DNA from: Rudaeicoccus suwonensis
Lineage (GTDB): Bacteria > Actinomycetota > Actinomycetes > Actinomycetales > Dermatophilaceae
Reading direction: 5' to 3'
DNA: 64,000 nucleotides
NCBI RefSeq assembly: GCF_007829035.1
Contig: NZ_VIVQ01000001.1
Location: 2,294,001-2,358,000 of the forward strand
A program made the translations under genes and the position numbers. Positions 16,336-21,033 of this stretch are shown in pieces (position 1 is the first letter of the stretch; each line of letters opens with the position of its first letter). The notes under the pieces are model-generated. The model ran no database searches. It saw nothing but the letters and a program-made list of their open reading frames with translations, and was not told the origin of the DNA.

Positions 16336-16935
16336 ATGAGCGACCACTACTTCTCCGCCCAACCGGCCAGTCCCGACGAACGCCGCACGATCAACGTGCC
16401 GCTCGCCGGTCGAACCCGCGCGGTGCAGGTGGCGCCGGGCGTCTTCTCCGCCGAGCGTATCGACCAGGGCACCTCGGTGCTGCTGCAGCATGCGCCGTTG
16501 CCGCCCAGCGACGGGACCTTCCTGGACATCGGGTGCGGCTGGGGACCGATCGCGCTGTCGCTGGCGCTGCACTCCCCCGATGCGGCTGTGTGGGCGGTCG
16601 ACGTCAACGAGCGCGCCCGCGATCTCACGCACATGAACGCCATCTCGTTGGGCTGCAACCATATTCACGTTGCTGCACCGGACGACGTGCCCGGCGACGT
16701 CCGGTTCGACGTGATCTGGTCGAACCCGCCGATCCGCGTCGGCAAGGACGTGCTGCACGACCTGATGTCGACCTGGCTGCCGCGTCTGGCCCGGGGCGGC
16801 AGCGCGTATCTCGTGGTGCAGCGCAACCTCGGTTCCGACTCGCTGCAGCGGTGGCTGGTCGACCAGGGTCATGCCACCGAGCGATTCACCAGTGTGCGCG
16901 GCTTCCGGATCCTCAGGGTCGCGGCGGCAGCGTGA
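16336..16935 (+). CDS. RsmC-like class I SAM methyltransferase
   Basis: The 199-aa protein carries the SAM-binding motif FLDIGCGWGPIALSLAL at about residues 57-73 and the catalytic motif SNPPIRVGK (N-P-P), which is characteristic of small-domain methyltransferases acting on exocyclic amino groups of nucleobases (RsmC/RlmG family). It is therefore probably an rRNA guanine-N2 methyltransferase, though it is a single-domain form. The last 23 bp overlap the 3' end of the convergent dapF gene. Confidence 0.82.
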   Translation: MSDHYFSAQPASPDERRTINVPLAGRTRAVQVAPGVFSAERIDQGTSVLLQHAPLPPSDGTFLDIGCGWGPIALSLALHSPDAAVWAVDVNERARDLTHMNAISLGCNHIHVAAPDDVPGDVRFDVIWSNPPIRVGKDVLHDLMSTWLPRLARGGSAYLVVQRNLGSDSLQRWLVDQGHATERFTSVRGFRILRVAAAA

Positions 16936-17785
16936 CAGTGCCTTCGGCGACCAGCGCCGCCGGGCCCGACAGCCAGACGCGATCGCCGTCGATGCGCACC
17001 CCGAGACGTCCGCCCGGCACATCGACATTCCACGCGAGCTGATCCAGCGGCTGCCCCGCCCACCACCAGGTCGCGATGGCCGCGGCTGCAGCGCCGGTGC
17101 CGCAACTGCGGGTCTCGCCCGCGCCGCGCTCGTGCACACGCATGCTCACCTGGCCCGGCTCGACCGCTCGCACGAACTCCACATTCGAGCCGTGCTCGGG
17201 ATGCGGGTCGATGTGGGGCGCAGCGCTCAGATCCAGACCACCGAGGTCGACGTCCTGCGGCAACGCCACGACGGTGTGCGGGTTGCCGAGGTCGAGGCTC
17301 AACGCGGGCAAGGGCACCGGCGCGCCGACGACTTGCACGACACTGTCCATGCCCCGCTCGGCGGCCTCGGCCGGACGCGTCAGCCGCCACGGCCCCAGGT
17401 CGGTGCTGAACCCGTCACCCACCGTCAGCACCCGCTTGACCCCGGCACGGGTGGCGATGTCGAACTCGCTGCCGCTGACCAGATGGTGATCGACCAGGTA
17501 TTTGGCGAAGACCCGCGTGCCGTTGCCGCACATCTCGGCGATCGAACCGTCGTGATTGCGGTAGTCCATGAACCACTGCGCCTCGCCGGAGTCATCGCGA
17601 ATCTCCTCTGGCGCCAACGCAATCGGCACGACGCGGATGAGTCCGTCCGCGCCGATTCCGCTACGCCTGTCGCACAGGAAGGTCACCTCCCGCGCGTCAA
17701 GATCGGGGGCGTCGTCATCGGGGGGCAGCAGCACGAAGTCGTTGAGAGTGCCGTGGCCTTTGGCGAATCGCAGCGTCGTCACCAC
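16913..17785 (-). CDS. dapF: diaminopimelate epimerase
   Basis: This converts LL- to meso-diaminopimelate for lysine and peptidoglycan synthesis. The roughly 290-aa protein has both catalytic cysteine motifs: MCGNGTRVFAKY (about residues 87-98) and RSCGTGAAAAAIA near the C-terminus, plus the N-terminal FAKGHGTLNDFVLL. The start is one of two adjacent GTG codons (17785 or 17782), immediately after the miaA stop, so the genes are coupled in the order miaA-dapF. The upstream extension to 17881 lies inside miaA and is rejected. Confidence 0.95.
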   Translation of the reverse strand: MVTTLRFAKGHGTLNDFVLLPPDDDAPDLDAREVTFLCDRRSGIGADGLIRVVPIALAPEEIRDDSGEAQWFMDYRNHDGSIAEMCGNGTRVFAKYLVDHHLVSGSEFDIATRAGVKRVLTVGDGFSTDLGPWRLTRPAEAAERGMDSVVQVVGAPVPLPALSLDLGNPHTVVALPQDVDLGGLDLSAAPHIDPHPEHGSNVEFVRAVEPGQVSMRVHERGAGETRSCGTGAAAAAIATWWWAGQPLDQLAWNVDVPGGRLGVRIDGDRVWLSGPAALVAEGTVTLPPRP

Positions 17786-17786
17786 G

Positions 17787-18710
17787 TCATTGTGTCCGAC
17801 CGCCACTGTCGACGATGTCGAGAGCCCGTTGCAGCAGATGCGGATCGTCATACGGCAGCCAGTTGATGCGTGGATCGGCACCGAACCACGAGTCCTGACG
17901 CTTGGCGAACTTCCTTGTCAATGCTGCTGTTTCGGCCTGTGCTTCATCTTGGTTCAGCCGACCGTCGAGCTGGGCCAGTGCTTGCGCATAGCCGATGGCG
18001 CGGCTTGCGGTGCGTCCCTCACGTATGCCGGCGGTGTCGAGACCGCGCACCTCCTCGAGGAGGCCATCGGCCCACATGCGGGCCACCCGTCGCTCGATGC
18101 GGTCGTGCAACGTGGGTCGGTCGATCCGCAGGCCGATCATCACCGCGGGCCGCAGGAACTGCCGCCGCGGCATGGTCGCGCTGAAGCGCCGGCCGGTGAG
18201 TTGGATGACCTCGAGGGCACGCACGATGCGACGACCGTTCGTGGGCAGGATCTGGGCTGCGGCCTGCGGATCCCGTTGCGCAAGTTCGGCATACAGCTCG
18301 GCGACGCCACGGGCGGCAAGCGCGGCCTCCCACGCGGCGCGCACCTGCGGTTCCGTCGGTGGGATCTGCAGGTCGTCGAGGGCGGCGCGACCGTAAAGAC
18401 CCGAGCCTCCCACCAGCACCGGACGACGGCCACGGCTCTCGATCTGCTGCATCACCGACCGCGAATCACGTTGGTATGCCGCAACACTCGCCTCATCGCG
18501 CACGTCGAGGACGTCTAGCAGATGGTGCGGCACGCCACCACGCTGCGCGATCGGTAGCTTGGCCGTGCCGATGTCCATGCCGCGGTAGAACTGCGAGGCG
18601 TCGGCGTTGACCACCTCACCCCGGAGGGCCTGCGCCAACGCGACTCCCAGGTCGGACTTACCCGTTGCTGTCGCACCGACGACGGCGACGATGGGGGCTG
18701 GAGCACTCAC
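17787..18710 (-). CDS. miaA: tRNA dimethylallyltransferase
   Basis: MiaA transfers a dimethylallyl group to A37 of tRNAs reading UNN codons; its product is then methylthiolated by MiaB, encoded 9 kb away. The 307-aa protein begins at GTG 18710 (VSAPAPIVAVVGATATGKSD, P-loop at about residues 13-20). It has the DASQFYRGMDIGTAK substrate loop and the family segment ILPTNGRRIVRALEV. The longer frame to 19358 is antisense to the next gene and not coding. The stop codon is followed directly by the dapF start. Confidence 0.95.
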   Translation of the reverse strand: MSAPAPIVAVVGATATGKSDLGVALAQALRGEVVNADASQFYRGMDIGTAKLPIAQRGGVPHHLLDVLDVRDEASVAAYQRDSRSVMQQIESRGRRPVLVGGSGLYGRAALDDLQIPPTEPQVRAAWEAALAARGVAELYAELAQRDPQAAAQILPTNGRRIVRALEVIQLTGRRFSATMPRRQFLRPAVMIGLRIDRPTLHDRIERRVARMWADGLLEEVRGLDTAGIREGRTASRAIGYAQALAQLDGRLNQDEAQAETAALTRKFAKRQDSWFGADPRINWLPYDDPHLLQRALDIVDSGGRTQ

Positions 18711-18845
18711 GCCTGCCAGTGTGGCAAACCGCGCGCCGACCGAACCGCACCGCGCCGCATCGGCGACCGCTCGCGCCTTTGCGAACATCAGCCGGAGCCG
18801 CGCGAGGTTGACCCTGCACCTGGTCGAGAGTGTTGGATCTGGCAC

Positions 18846-19856
18846 ATGGACGACCTGCTCTCGATCGGAGAATTCGCGCGGCGCAGCGGCCTCAGCGTGA
18901 GCGCGTTGCGCTTCTACGACCGTGAGCGCGTGCTGGTGCCGACGGTCGTCGACCCGGCAACGGGCTACCGCCGGTACACCATTGACCAGGTCCGGACCGG
19001 GGTGGTGATCGCTTCGCTGCGGAGGGTGCAGATGTCGGTGGATGACATCCGCACGATCGTGGAACTCGGCGACGACACGGGCAGCGTCGTCGATCTGCTC
19101 GACCTGCATCTGGGCCGGCTCGAGGACGGCTTTGCGCAGGCACGACGTGAGATCGCCGCGGTCAAGGCACGGCTTGCAGACGATGCGGCTGCGATCGAGG
19201 TGGTCGTCAGTGCACCCGGTCTGCTGCGGGCGCTGGATGCGGTGCGTTTCGCGGCCGGCGACGACCCCGCCTATTCGATGCTGCACGCCATCCAGTTGCG
19301 TCTGACCCCGCAGGAGTGCCGCGTTGTCGCCACGGATCGTTACCGCCTCGCCATGCATCGCACCGCATGTCTGACCGCGAATGTGCCGGAGGCGGGCGCT
19401 GCGTCATACGTGCGCGATCTGGTCGTGCCCCTCGCGTGGATTGACGAGGTGATGGAAGTGCTTGAAACACAGGATGATTCGCGTGTCACGCTTCACGCGA
19501 GCGGTGGTCGGGTGCGCGTGGATTGCGGGCCGGTCGGCCTCGAAACCCGCACGCTCGACGTCGTCTTCCCGGACGTCGACACCGTGCTGGGCGCCGCTCC
19601 GACCGGCACCGCCACCACCATCGACCTCGGTCAGCTGCGGAAGACCGAAGATGCGCGGACCCTGCTCGTCGATGACGACACCCACGTCAACCGGGCGTTC
19701 CTGCTCGAGGCTGTGACCGCCGCCGGAGGGCAGGCGACGCTGCGACTCGACGGACCGATCGCACCGTTGGCGATCCACGGGATCGACGGGGCGATGTCGC
19801 TGCTGATGCCGATCCGCCCCGAGGACGAGGACGCGAACGAGGTCGGTCGAGCGTGA
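18846..19856 (+). CDS. MerR-family regulator fused to DNA sliding-clamp-like domains
   Basis: The 336-aa protein starts with a clear MerR winged helix-turn-helix (LSIGEFARRSGLSVSALRFY, about residues 5-75) and a helical linker. From about residue 120 it resembles the beta sliding clamp DnaN: CRVVATDRYRLAMHR matches the clamp ATD-RLA motif, then TRTLDVVFPDVDTVL, VNRAFLLEAV and a terminal LLMPIR as in clamp domain 3. It seems to contain clamp domains 2 and part of 3, not a full clamp. A role linking transcription to replication or repair, or use of the fold as a ligand or protein sensor, is inference. Its TGA overlaps the next gene's GTG. Confidence 0.8.
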   Translation: MDDLLSIGEFARRSGLSVSALRFYDRERVLVPTVVDPATGYRRYTIDQVRTGVVIASLRRVQMSVDDIRTIVELGDDTGSVVDLLDLHLGRLEDGFAQARREIAAVKARLADDAAAIEVVVSAPGLLRALDAVRFAAGDDPAYSMLHAIQLRLTPQECRVVATDRYRLAMHRTACLTANVPEAGAASYVRDLVVPLAWIDEVMEVLETQDDSRVTLHASGGRVRVDCGPVGLETRTLDVVFPDVDTVLGAAPTGTATTIDLGQLRKTEDARTLLVDDDTHVNRAFLLEAVTAAGGQATLRLDGPIAPLAIHGIDGAMSLLMPIRPEDEDANEVGRA

Positions 19857-20140
19857 GCGTGCTGGTGCACCTGTGTCGTGGGTGCGGTCACCATGGCGAC
19901 TGGCATCTGCCGCGCAACGCGGGATACACCGGATGCCAGTGCTGCCGAGCCGGCGCCGTCGAGCTCGATCCAATGCCCGTGCTGCAGGAGACGTTCGCGA
20001 TGCCTGGGTGGAGTCCTGAACCGCTGTGGGCGCCCGGCACTGCGCGCAACCCCGGCACCATGCATGCCAGCACGACCTGCTCCTGCGATGCATGCACGGC
20101 CGCCTTCGAGGCACTGACCGGACGCGCCGAGGCCGGCTGA
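19853..20140 (+). CDS. small cysteine-rich (zinc-ribbon-like) protein
   Basis: This 95-aa protein of unknown function has paired cysteines CRGCG (residues 8-12), CQCC (28-31) and CSCDAC near the C-terminus, suggesting one or two metal-binding knuckles. The GTG start overlaps the stop of the MerR-clamp gene (GTGA), so the two are translationally coupled and probably act together. I do not recognise a family. Four octamers or hairpins do not interrupt it, and base composition matches its neighbours. Confidence 0.65.
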   Translation: MSVLVHLCRGCGHHGDWHLPRNAGYTGCQCCRAGAVELDPMPVLQETFAMPGWSPEPLWAPGTARNPGTMHASTTCSCDACTAAFEALTGRAEAG

Positions 20141-20214
20141 CTGTCCACTACTGAGACGGCAACCAGCGCTAAATCCGTTGCGCCACAGTCGGTTTCTGGA
20201 CGACGATGGCCTGC

Positions 20215-21033
20215 ATGACCGACTACCTGTCGCTGAACCGCGCCAACTGGGACGACCGCGCCGCAGCACACGCTGCGAGCGTGGACTATGACGTTGCCCG
20301 CTTGGTGTCCGGCGAGCGCCGGCTCAGCGACGTCGTCGAATTCGACGTGCCGCGCCTGGGTGACATCGACGGGCTGGACGTCGTCCACCTGCAGTGCCAC
20401 ATCGGCACCGACACGCTCTCACTCGCCCGACTGGGCGCGACCGTCGTCGGTCTCGACCTGTCGCCAGAGTCGCTCGCGCAGGCTCGCCGCATCGCCGACG
20501 AGGCGGGGCTGACCGTCGACTTCGTCGAATCCGAGGTGTATGCCGCGCCGACGGCTCTTGGCGGACGCACCTTCGATCTGGTCTACACCGGCATCGGCGC
20601 GCTCTGCTGGTTGCCTTCGATCGAGCGGTGGGCCGCAACGGTTGCGGCTCTGCTGCGTCCAGGCGGGCGGCTGTTCATCCGTGAAGGGCACCCGATGCTG
20701 TGGTCGATGGGCGAATCCGAAACCGCCGTCCAGGTCGAATACCCCTACTTCGAGCAATCCGAACCGCTCGTCTTCACCGACGGCGGCACCTATGTCGAGA
20801 CCGACCACCAGTTCACCGCCAACACCACGGTGGAGTGGAATCACGGCCTCGGTGAGATCGTCACGGCTCTGCTCGACCACGGATTTGCCATCACCGCGCT
20901 CGTCGAGCACGACAGCGCGCCGTGGTGCGCCCTGCCCGGCCAGATGGTCGCGGACGACCGCGGCGAATGGCGCCTGAGCGATCGACCGCAACGTCTCGCC
21001 GCCACCTACACCCTGCAGGCTCGCAAAACCTGA
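20215..21033 (+). CDS. class I SAM-dependent methyltransferase
   Basis: The 272-aa protein begins MTDYLSLNRANWDDRAAAHA and has the SAM motif VVHLQCHIGTDTLSLARLGA, motif VVGLDLSPES and the post-motif GRLFIREGHP. The N-terminal NRANWDDRA block is typical of a widespread actinobacterial small-molecule methyltransferase group annotated only as class I methyltransferase. An ATG 9 bp earlier (20206) is equally possible; there is no clear Shine-Dalgarno. Substrate unknown. It is followed by a perfect 16-bp hairpin. Confidence 0.8.
   Translation: MTDYLSLNRANWDDRAAAHAASVDYDVARLVSGERRLSDVVEFDVPRLGDIDGLDVVHLQCHIGTDTLSLARLGATVVGLDLSPESLAQARRIADEAGLTVDFVESEVYAAPTALGGRTFDLVYTGIGALCWLPSIERWAATVAALLRPGGRLFIREGHPMLWSMGESETAVQVEYPYFEQSEPLVFTDGGTYVETDHQFTANTTVEWNHGLGEIVTALLDHGFAITALVEHDSAPWCALPGQMVADDRGEWRLSDRPQRLAATYTLQARKT

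Follow-up and report, generated by a model that had tools for sequence, protein, structure and literature searches.

A gene of Rudaeicoccus suwonensis encodes a protein of 336 residues in which a MerR-type DNA-binding domain is fused to the remnant of a DNA sliding clamp (18846..19856, forward strand, in the 64,000-nucleotide stretch of DNA analysed here, referred to as the window). The assignment draws on the open reading frame, Pfam and NCBIfam profiles, an AlphaFold2 model, and Foldseek and VIA-align comparisons. A sequence-only reading of the window had proposed that a MerR helix-turn-helix was joined to clamp domains at this locus, and profiles, predicted fold and 86 relatives agree with that proposal. 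Judged from the sequences, what survives of the clamp is its peptide- and antibiotic-binding pocket, and the fusion is a member of an actinomycete family.

Domain architecture and predicted fold

The first part of the gene (18846..19178, forward strand) encodes the MerR DNA-binding domain, matched by Pfam across residues 6-72, and a long alpha-helix at predicted residues 78-111 in the secondary structure of the model. PF00376 (MerR) matches residues 6-44 (E 4e-13, above its curated cut-off) and PF13411 also scores above cut-off (E 2.5e-12); by analogy, the helix would be a dimerisation helix. Clamp domain II follows (19179..19574, forward strand; residues about 112-243), delimited by VIA-align and by a match of PF02767 (DNA_pol3_beta_2) to residues 126-243 (E 6.8e-11, above curated cut-off), and the table of pocket residues places the segment ATDRYRLA (162-169) within it. 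The remainder (19575..19853, forward strand) codes for clamp domain III in a shortened form that includes pocket residues N282 and F285 and a C-terminal MPIR (321-324), as located by alignment with the Escherichia coli clamp and by the model. The motifs ATDRYRLA, FPDV and LLMPIR lie where the sequence-only reading had put them, and they align with pocket segments of DnaN. Neither PF00712 (clamp domain 1) nor PF02768 (domain 3) is among the Pfam families listed at E up to 1; of the full three-domain clamp set (PF00712, PF02767, PF02768), the fusion protein carries PF02767 alone. The NCBIfam dnaN model TIGR00663 covers residues 118-278 at E 3.9e-11, with a score well under the model cut-off, as would be expected where the clamp part is a fragment.

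The AlphaFold2 model of the fusion protein, computed with 71 family members as input, has a mean pLDDT of 91.2 and a pTM of 0.81, and the 50 top PDB rows that Foldseek returned for it are all beta clamps (best E 1.7e-13). Superposition by VIA-align of model residues 112-325 on residues 120-366 of the E. coli clamp gave Z 22.2 and rmsd 2.6 over 205 residues, and superposition on 5ah2, the M. smegmatis clamp solved together with a natural product, gave Z 20.8 and rmsd 2.3 over 200 residues. A Micromonospora member whose domain III is more complete was modelled at pLDDT 93.2 and superposed on the clamp with Z 25.6 and rmsd 2.4 over 229 residues. The clamp likeness of residues 120-336, on which the earlier reading had staked its claim, thus withstood the attempt to refute it: the predicted structure resembles a clamp by both Foldseek and VIA-align.

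Clamp domain I is missing from the fusion protein in structural and sequence alignments, and residues 267-275 and 284-313 of the E. coli clamp have no counterpart in the window protein. Domain III is present in shortened form with its pocket columns retained, which bears out the earlier view that only domains 2 and 3 would be found. These lost parts (domain I, E. coli 267-275 and 284-313) contain what we take to be the clamp dimer interface, and given their loss the remnant should be one that does not form a ring. The genome of R. suwonensis has two PF02767 loci, the true dnaN and the fusion gene; the fusion gene lies away from the dnaN locus, and in alignment its product is 22% identical to the organism's own DnaN.

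Conservation of the ligand pocket

The pocket of the E. coli clamp comprises 18 residues (PMC11139829, excerpt). Across 87 family genes, the consensus residue of actinobacterial DnaN occurs with a mean frequency of 0.74 at these 18 positions, compared with 0.20 at 224 others (Mann-Whitney P 6e-8), where the consensus was derived from 20 DnaN, the other columns run from residue 125 onward, and structural and binding constraint would both give the same signal. If a residue counts as DnaN-compatible when it equals that of E. coli or ranks among the three most frequent in actinobacterial DnaN, the window protein is compatible at 16 of 18 pocket positions, against 75 of 177 other aligned positions. 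Pocket positions 174, R176, P242, N320, M362, P363 and R365 are kept in 71 to 87 of the 87 genes; among the most conserved columns are also E. coli V170, A171, D173 and V361, which are off the pocket list and adjacent to it in sequence. The pocket for clamp-binding motifs between domains II and III should persist in the window protein.

Family, distribution and gene neighbourhood

The comparison set of 87 consists of the window gene, loci L003-L006, L008 and L009, and the best 80 of 394 loci, with L007, which is cut by a contig end, omitted; the set leans to close relatives because the best 80 of the 394 were used. Two alignments, A2 and A4, hold 71 of the 87 genes and 39 genes, respectively. 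Within the own genome and its relatives, the clamp part is present at 8 of 31 loci (L001-L031). Among the best 80 of 394 loci, members were found in Streptomyces, Kitasatospora, Micromonospora, Actinoplanes, Asanoa, Blastococcus, Nocardia, Pseudonocardia, Nocardioides, Terrabacter, Ornithinimicrobium and other genera. At the level of the phylum, matches that start in the MerR part occur in at least 11 of 396 genomes, all within the class of the window; the remaining matches listed in these 396 genomes start at model position 95 or later and are DnaN-like.

No neighbour gene is constant across genera when all kinds of gene called around the family loci are considered, these calls coming from a home-made codon-score caller that overlooks short genes, including the Cys-rich gene described below. 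Many Micromonospora (e.g., L038, L046 and L080) carry the fusion gene between saccharopine-dehydrogenase-like and seryl-tRNA-synthetase-like genes, as named by eye. Neighbours in the window, also named by eye, are dapF, miaA, a methyltransferase and RtcB; the miaA-like gene (17787-18710, reverse strand) and the dapF-like gene (16913-17806, reverse strand) run divergently from the fusion gene. An informal look at the neighbourhoods noticed no clamp-antibiotic biosynthetic cluster beside family genes. A phage origin was considered and set aside: a tblastn search against phages returned matches to the MerR part only, in 6 records, none of them covering 80%. The fusion is likewise not mainly plasmid-borne, since only 5 of 62 matching plasmid records contain at least 80% of it; these five are replicons of 0.9-3.1 Mb from Streptomyces and Embleya.

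Internal start and Cys-rich partner

An in-frame ATG stands at the boundary between the MerR and clamp parts in 59 of the 87 genes. A Shine–Dalgarno (SD) match of at least four precedes 53 of these 59, against 37.3 expected under synonymous recoding of the upstream codons (maximum 47 in 1000 recodings), and GGAG ends 6 nt before the boundary ATG in 47 genes; elsewhere, 41 of 310 other in-frame ATGs have an SD match of at least four. With a match of at least five the excess is weak (28 observed, 22.0 expected, maximum 28). The rare arginine codon AGG helps to form the SD sequence at this place (17 of 22 there against 32 of 953 elsewhere, in 24 Streptomycetaceae; P 9e-20, calculated over related genes that are not independent). 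With GTG included, an SD sequence and start codon are found at the boundary in 60 of 87 genes, and initiation there would yield a free clamp-domain isoform. The window gene has no internal start at its MerR/clamp boundary.

The window gene is instead followed by a gene for a small Cys-rich protein of 95 residues (19853..20140, forward strand), which begins with GTG, overlaps the fusion-gene stop by 4 bp and has no Pfam match. The overlap recurs in relatives, with nine of them (L003, L004, L008, L034, L036, L042, L086, L089 and L108) having the fusion and Cys-rich pair with an equal overlap, and the Cys-rich gene is probably a translationally coupled operon partner of the fusion gene. The Cys-rich gene also occurs by itself: in G026, the genome that contains L009, a homologue (L258) stands alone behind an operator copy of its own. 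The internal start is absent from all 10 genes that have a Cys-rich partner. In the tree, a single branch (support 99/93) separates the 60 internal-start genes from the 10 Cys-rich-partner genes, with 17 rows in neither group and several rows, the window gene included, on long branches.

A predicted operator at the gene itself

A putative MerR-type promoter/operator lies at 18808..18838 on the forward strand, recognised in alignment with 86 relatives: it consists of a TTGACC -35 box, a 19-bp spacer with an imperfect palindrome and a -10-like TTGGAT. The predicted window operator reads TTGACCCTGCACCTGGTCGAGAGTGTTGGAT and ends 7 nt 5' of the ATG. In the 130 bp scanned upstream of each gene, TTGACCCTCGACCTGGTCGAGGCCNCAGGGT or a form with at least 23 of 31 positions equal was found for 87 of 87 genes, all of which show the layout of -35 box, 19-bp palindromic spacer and -10-like box predicted as the operator. 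Promoters with spacers of 19-20 bp are activated by MerR regulators (PMC8113463, excerpt). Generic sigma-70 and terminator scans of 18500-20300 returned nothing; a 19-bp spacer is beyond the range of that promoter scan.

When up to two mismatches were allowed, the pattern found in the own genome the window site exactly plus one 2-mismatch site (control 2), and a kin-fitted pattern with up to three mismatches found the window site plus one 3-mismatch site (control 1); no operator at dnaN and no second good operator were found there. A position weight matrix (PWM), derived from 81 self sites (that of the window and those of 80 loci) so that self sites score high by construction, gave 27.3 for the window operator and 1.5 for the next best site in the 64-kb window. 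At a threshold of 15, the same matrix found 84 sites in 1.54 Mb around 80 family genes, namely the 80 self sites and 4 reverse readings of them.

Beyond the own genome, the strict pattern found 20 sites in 19 of 22 other genomes of various genera (control 0), 19 of them, judged by coordinates or sequence, the promoter of the fusion gene itself and one before dnaN in Micromonospora matsumotoense; the self site stands alone in 18 of the 22. The three genomes without a strict-pattern site (G023, G026 and G066) have operators of their own that deviate from the pattern. A second pattern with up to three mismatches gave 18 sites in 16 of the same 22 genomes (control 1), including, beyond the self sites and one dnaN site, a single 3-mismatch site (G064:C44). 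In seven genomes of the own and close groups, the kin-fitted pattern with up to three mismatches gave 15 sites (control 5): 6 self sites, a 1-mismatch site before the Cys-rich homologue in G026 and 8 sites with three mismatches. In most of these genomes the protein thus seems to have no target but itself, as far as operators close enough to the patterns are concerned, diverged ones being invisible to them. From the position of its operator, the window gene is predicted to be autoregulated, and it would be a minimal autoregulator. The operator sits in a gap of about 136 bp shared with the divergent miaA-like gene, and an effect on miaA may be conceivable.

A predicted larger regulon in Micromonospora

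In 29 Micromonosporaceae genomes, the operator pattern found 60 sites (control 0), 26 of them self sites by sequence and 34 others. The non-self sites stand before dnaN (7), one MFS transporter (13), another MFS protein (1), TPR-like small proteins (10) and YunG-like proteins (2), with one site (L193, G080:C448) having no clear downstream gene; the gene calls around these sites are home-made.

In 22 of 23 Micromonospora the PWM recovered the dnaN operator, which lies 688-705 bp upstream of the start of dnaN and is oriented towards it (L148:1326-1356, with equivalents in L197-L203, L205-L218 and L225), at scores of 21.4-43.0; the top second-best score, 9.2, is a reverse reading of the same site. 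In L148, the one region read whole, the operator lies directly 3' of the end of a dnaA-like reading frame and ahead of TGTGGATAA-like boxes. The site is missing in one Micromonospora (G091) and in 6 of 6 other Micromonosporaceae, and of 20 genomes whose dnaN was scanned, the single one with the operator is a Micromonospora. We assume that dnaN is the target of this putative operator, an effect on dnaN being an assumption at a distance of about 690 bp; the site may serve another transcript.

For the MFS gene (PF07690, E 2e-30), all 16 of 16 orthologues with at least 60% identity carry the operator, at 7-14 bp from the gene start; none of the 10 weaker homologues fetched does, their best upstream site scoring 16.5 at a distance of 949 bp. 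TPR-like proteins of about 140-180 residues, as called, are encoded immediately after the operator in Micromonospora, Asanoa and Plantactinospora (L175, L176, L177, L179, L180, L185, L188, L190, L195 and L196), and the two compared with Pfam gave weak TPR matches under cut-off. A YunG-like protein lies directly behind it in a Micromonospora and an Asanoa (L184 and L189), one confirmed by Pfam (E 1.5e-43) and the other recognised by eye.

Proposed role and alternative explanations

It is quite probable, in our estimate, that the clamp part acts as a sensor, an idea already raised in the earlier reading and now backed by retention of the pocket, by the predicted self operator, and by the candidate Micromonospora operators at dnaN and the transporter. 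We propose that a MerR dimer would occupy its own promoter, with the captured clamp remnant (domains II and III) and its ligand pocket as the effector domain. A compound that occupies the pocket would bind the remnant, upon which the dimer would remodel the promoter with its 19-bp spacer and synthesis of the protein would rise. Each additional clamp-like pocket would then serve as a decoy that spares DnaN, given that the fusion protein, having the same pocket as DnaN, would sequester the same ligand. In many relatives, the internal start would add the pocket domain alone, as TipAS is made from TipA, and in Micromonospora the regulon would have expanded to take in the target gene dnaN as well as an MFS transporter, both raised by the same signal. 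By analogy, these self, dnaN and transporter arms are those that would be expected for resistance to a clamp-directed drug.

The most likely inducer, we infer, would be a clamp-pocket antibiotic of the griselimycin/mycoplanecin type. Clamp antibiotics occupy both subsites of the pocket, and a second DnaN is encoded in the clusters for griselimycin and mycoplanecin (PMC10817943, excerpt); resistance to cyclohexyl-griselimycin accompanies amplification of segments with dnaN (PMC8765428, excerpt). The drug reading draws on the relatives, chiefly those of Micromonospora, given that the window gene has no internal start and its own genome no operator at dnaN. Taken whole, as a TipA-like sensor and decoy with a clamp-pocket antibiotic as its ligand, we hold this reading to be somewhat better than an even bet. 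The roles of the TPR-like, YunG-like and Cys-rich partners fall outside the proposed model and are unexplained by it.

The strongest rival is that the protein serves clamp homeostasis or the response to replication stress, its pocket reading the cell's own clamp-binding motifs (those of polymerase, repair or clamp-loader proteins) and adjusting dnaN and itself. The retained pocket residues are those that bind clamp-binding motifs, and the likely targeting of dnaN in 22 of 23 Micromonospora also fits homeostasis. However, homeostasis hardly accounts for an MFS transporter in the regulon or for a decoy made from an internal start; the dnaN operator was not seen outside Micromonospora (one of 20 genomes, itself a Micromonospora, and none of six other Micromonosporaceae), and so patchy a family (at least 11 of 396 genomes of the phylum) would be odd for a core control. 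We regard homeostasis as unlikely, while giving it appreciable weight.

The small-molecule character of the proposed ligand is put in question by another explanation, in which a foreign clamp binder, such as a clamp-blocking phage protein, is sensed and the cell is flooded with decoy pockets. The decoy would act identically against such a protein, and the structures matched by the model include the complex of the clamp with Gp168 (7evp), presumably a phage clamp inhibitor. Yet the transporter suggests a small compound, and no neighbour gene is constant across genera; a phage ligand seems improbable to us. Sensing itself would be dispensed with if the clamp part were a structural relic that aids dimerisation or binds something else, its pocket residues being kept for folding. 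The conserved V170, A171, D173 and V361, which lie beside the pocket list and not on it, are what this would lead one to expect, but the listed pocket positions are held in 71 to 87 of 87 genes despite the loss of domain I, and the window protein has kept the pocket while shedding much of domain III. We consider a relic very improbable.

Returning to the antibiotic-sensing proposal, we give an even chance to its general form: a target-mimic resistance switch of actinomycetes, in which a copy of the clamp pocket senses clamp-blocking antibiotics and floods the cell with decoys, often from two starts, and in which Micromonospora additionally raises dnaN and an exporter. If true, this would be a regulator with a domain of the essential replication clamp as its sensor, linking clamp occupancy to transcription, and from its wide distribution it would follow that natural products directed at the clamp are common in soil. 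The proposal yields a concrete prediction on how cells resist antibiotics that target the clamp, a class studied against mycobacteria, and the operator and regulator together could serve as a reporter for finding new members of that class. It also points to a candidate regulated promoter upstream of Micromonospora dnaN. In the portions of the open-access literature covered by our search, no description was found of such a promoter, of a MerR operator upstream of dnaN, of a DNA-clamp domain as a MerR effector or of a MerR-clamp fusion, in keeping with the earlier remark that the function is undescribed.

Comparison with known systems

The fusion shares with DnaN the fold of domains II and III and the pocket that receives clamp-binding motifs and griselimycin. 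Unlike DnaN, it has no domain I, a shortened domain III and a fused MerR part, and no ring formation is expected of it. GriR and MypR, the second DnaN of the griselimycin and mycoplanecin clusters, provide a precedent for an extra copy of the drug target that is linked to resistance (PMC10817943, excerpt). They are DnaN-encoding genes within biosynthetic clusters, whereas the fusion places a truncated clamp within a regulator, with no such cluster noticed adjoining it.

TipA already exemplifies a MerR regulator that combines a drug-binding domain with autoregulation and a free-domain isoform. From its two starts come TipAL and TipAS, of which TipAS predominates and sequesters antibiotics (PMC7762955, excerpt). 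Like the fusion, members of the TipA class (TipAL/TipAS, AlbA and SkgA) combine a MerR helix-turn-helix and helix with a ligand-binding C-terminal domain and an operator of their own. The second start of TipA frees the ligand-binding domain, and an equivalent signal is present in 60 of the 87 fusion-family genes, though not in the window gene. PF07739 (TipAS), the effector domain of that class, is not among the Pfam matches of the fusion protein at E up to 1; the effector of the fusion is instead a DNA-clamp remnant, which by analogy would mimic the drug target itself.
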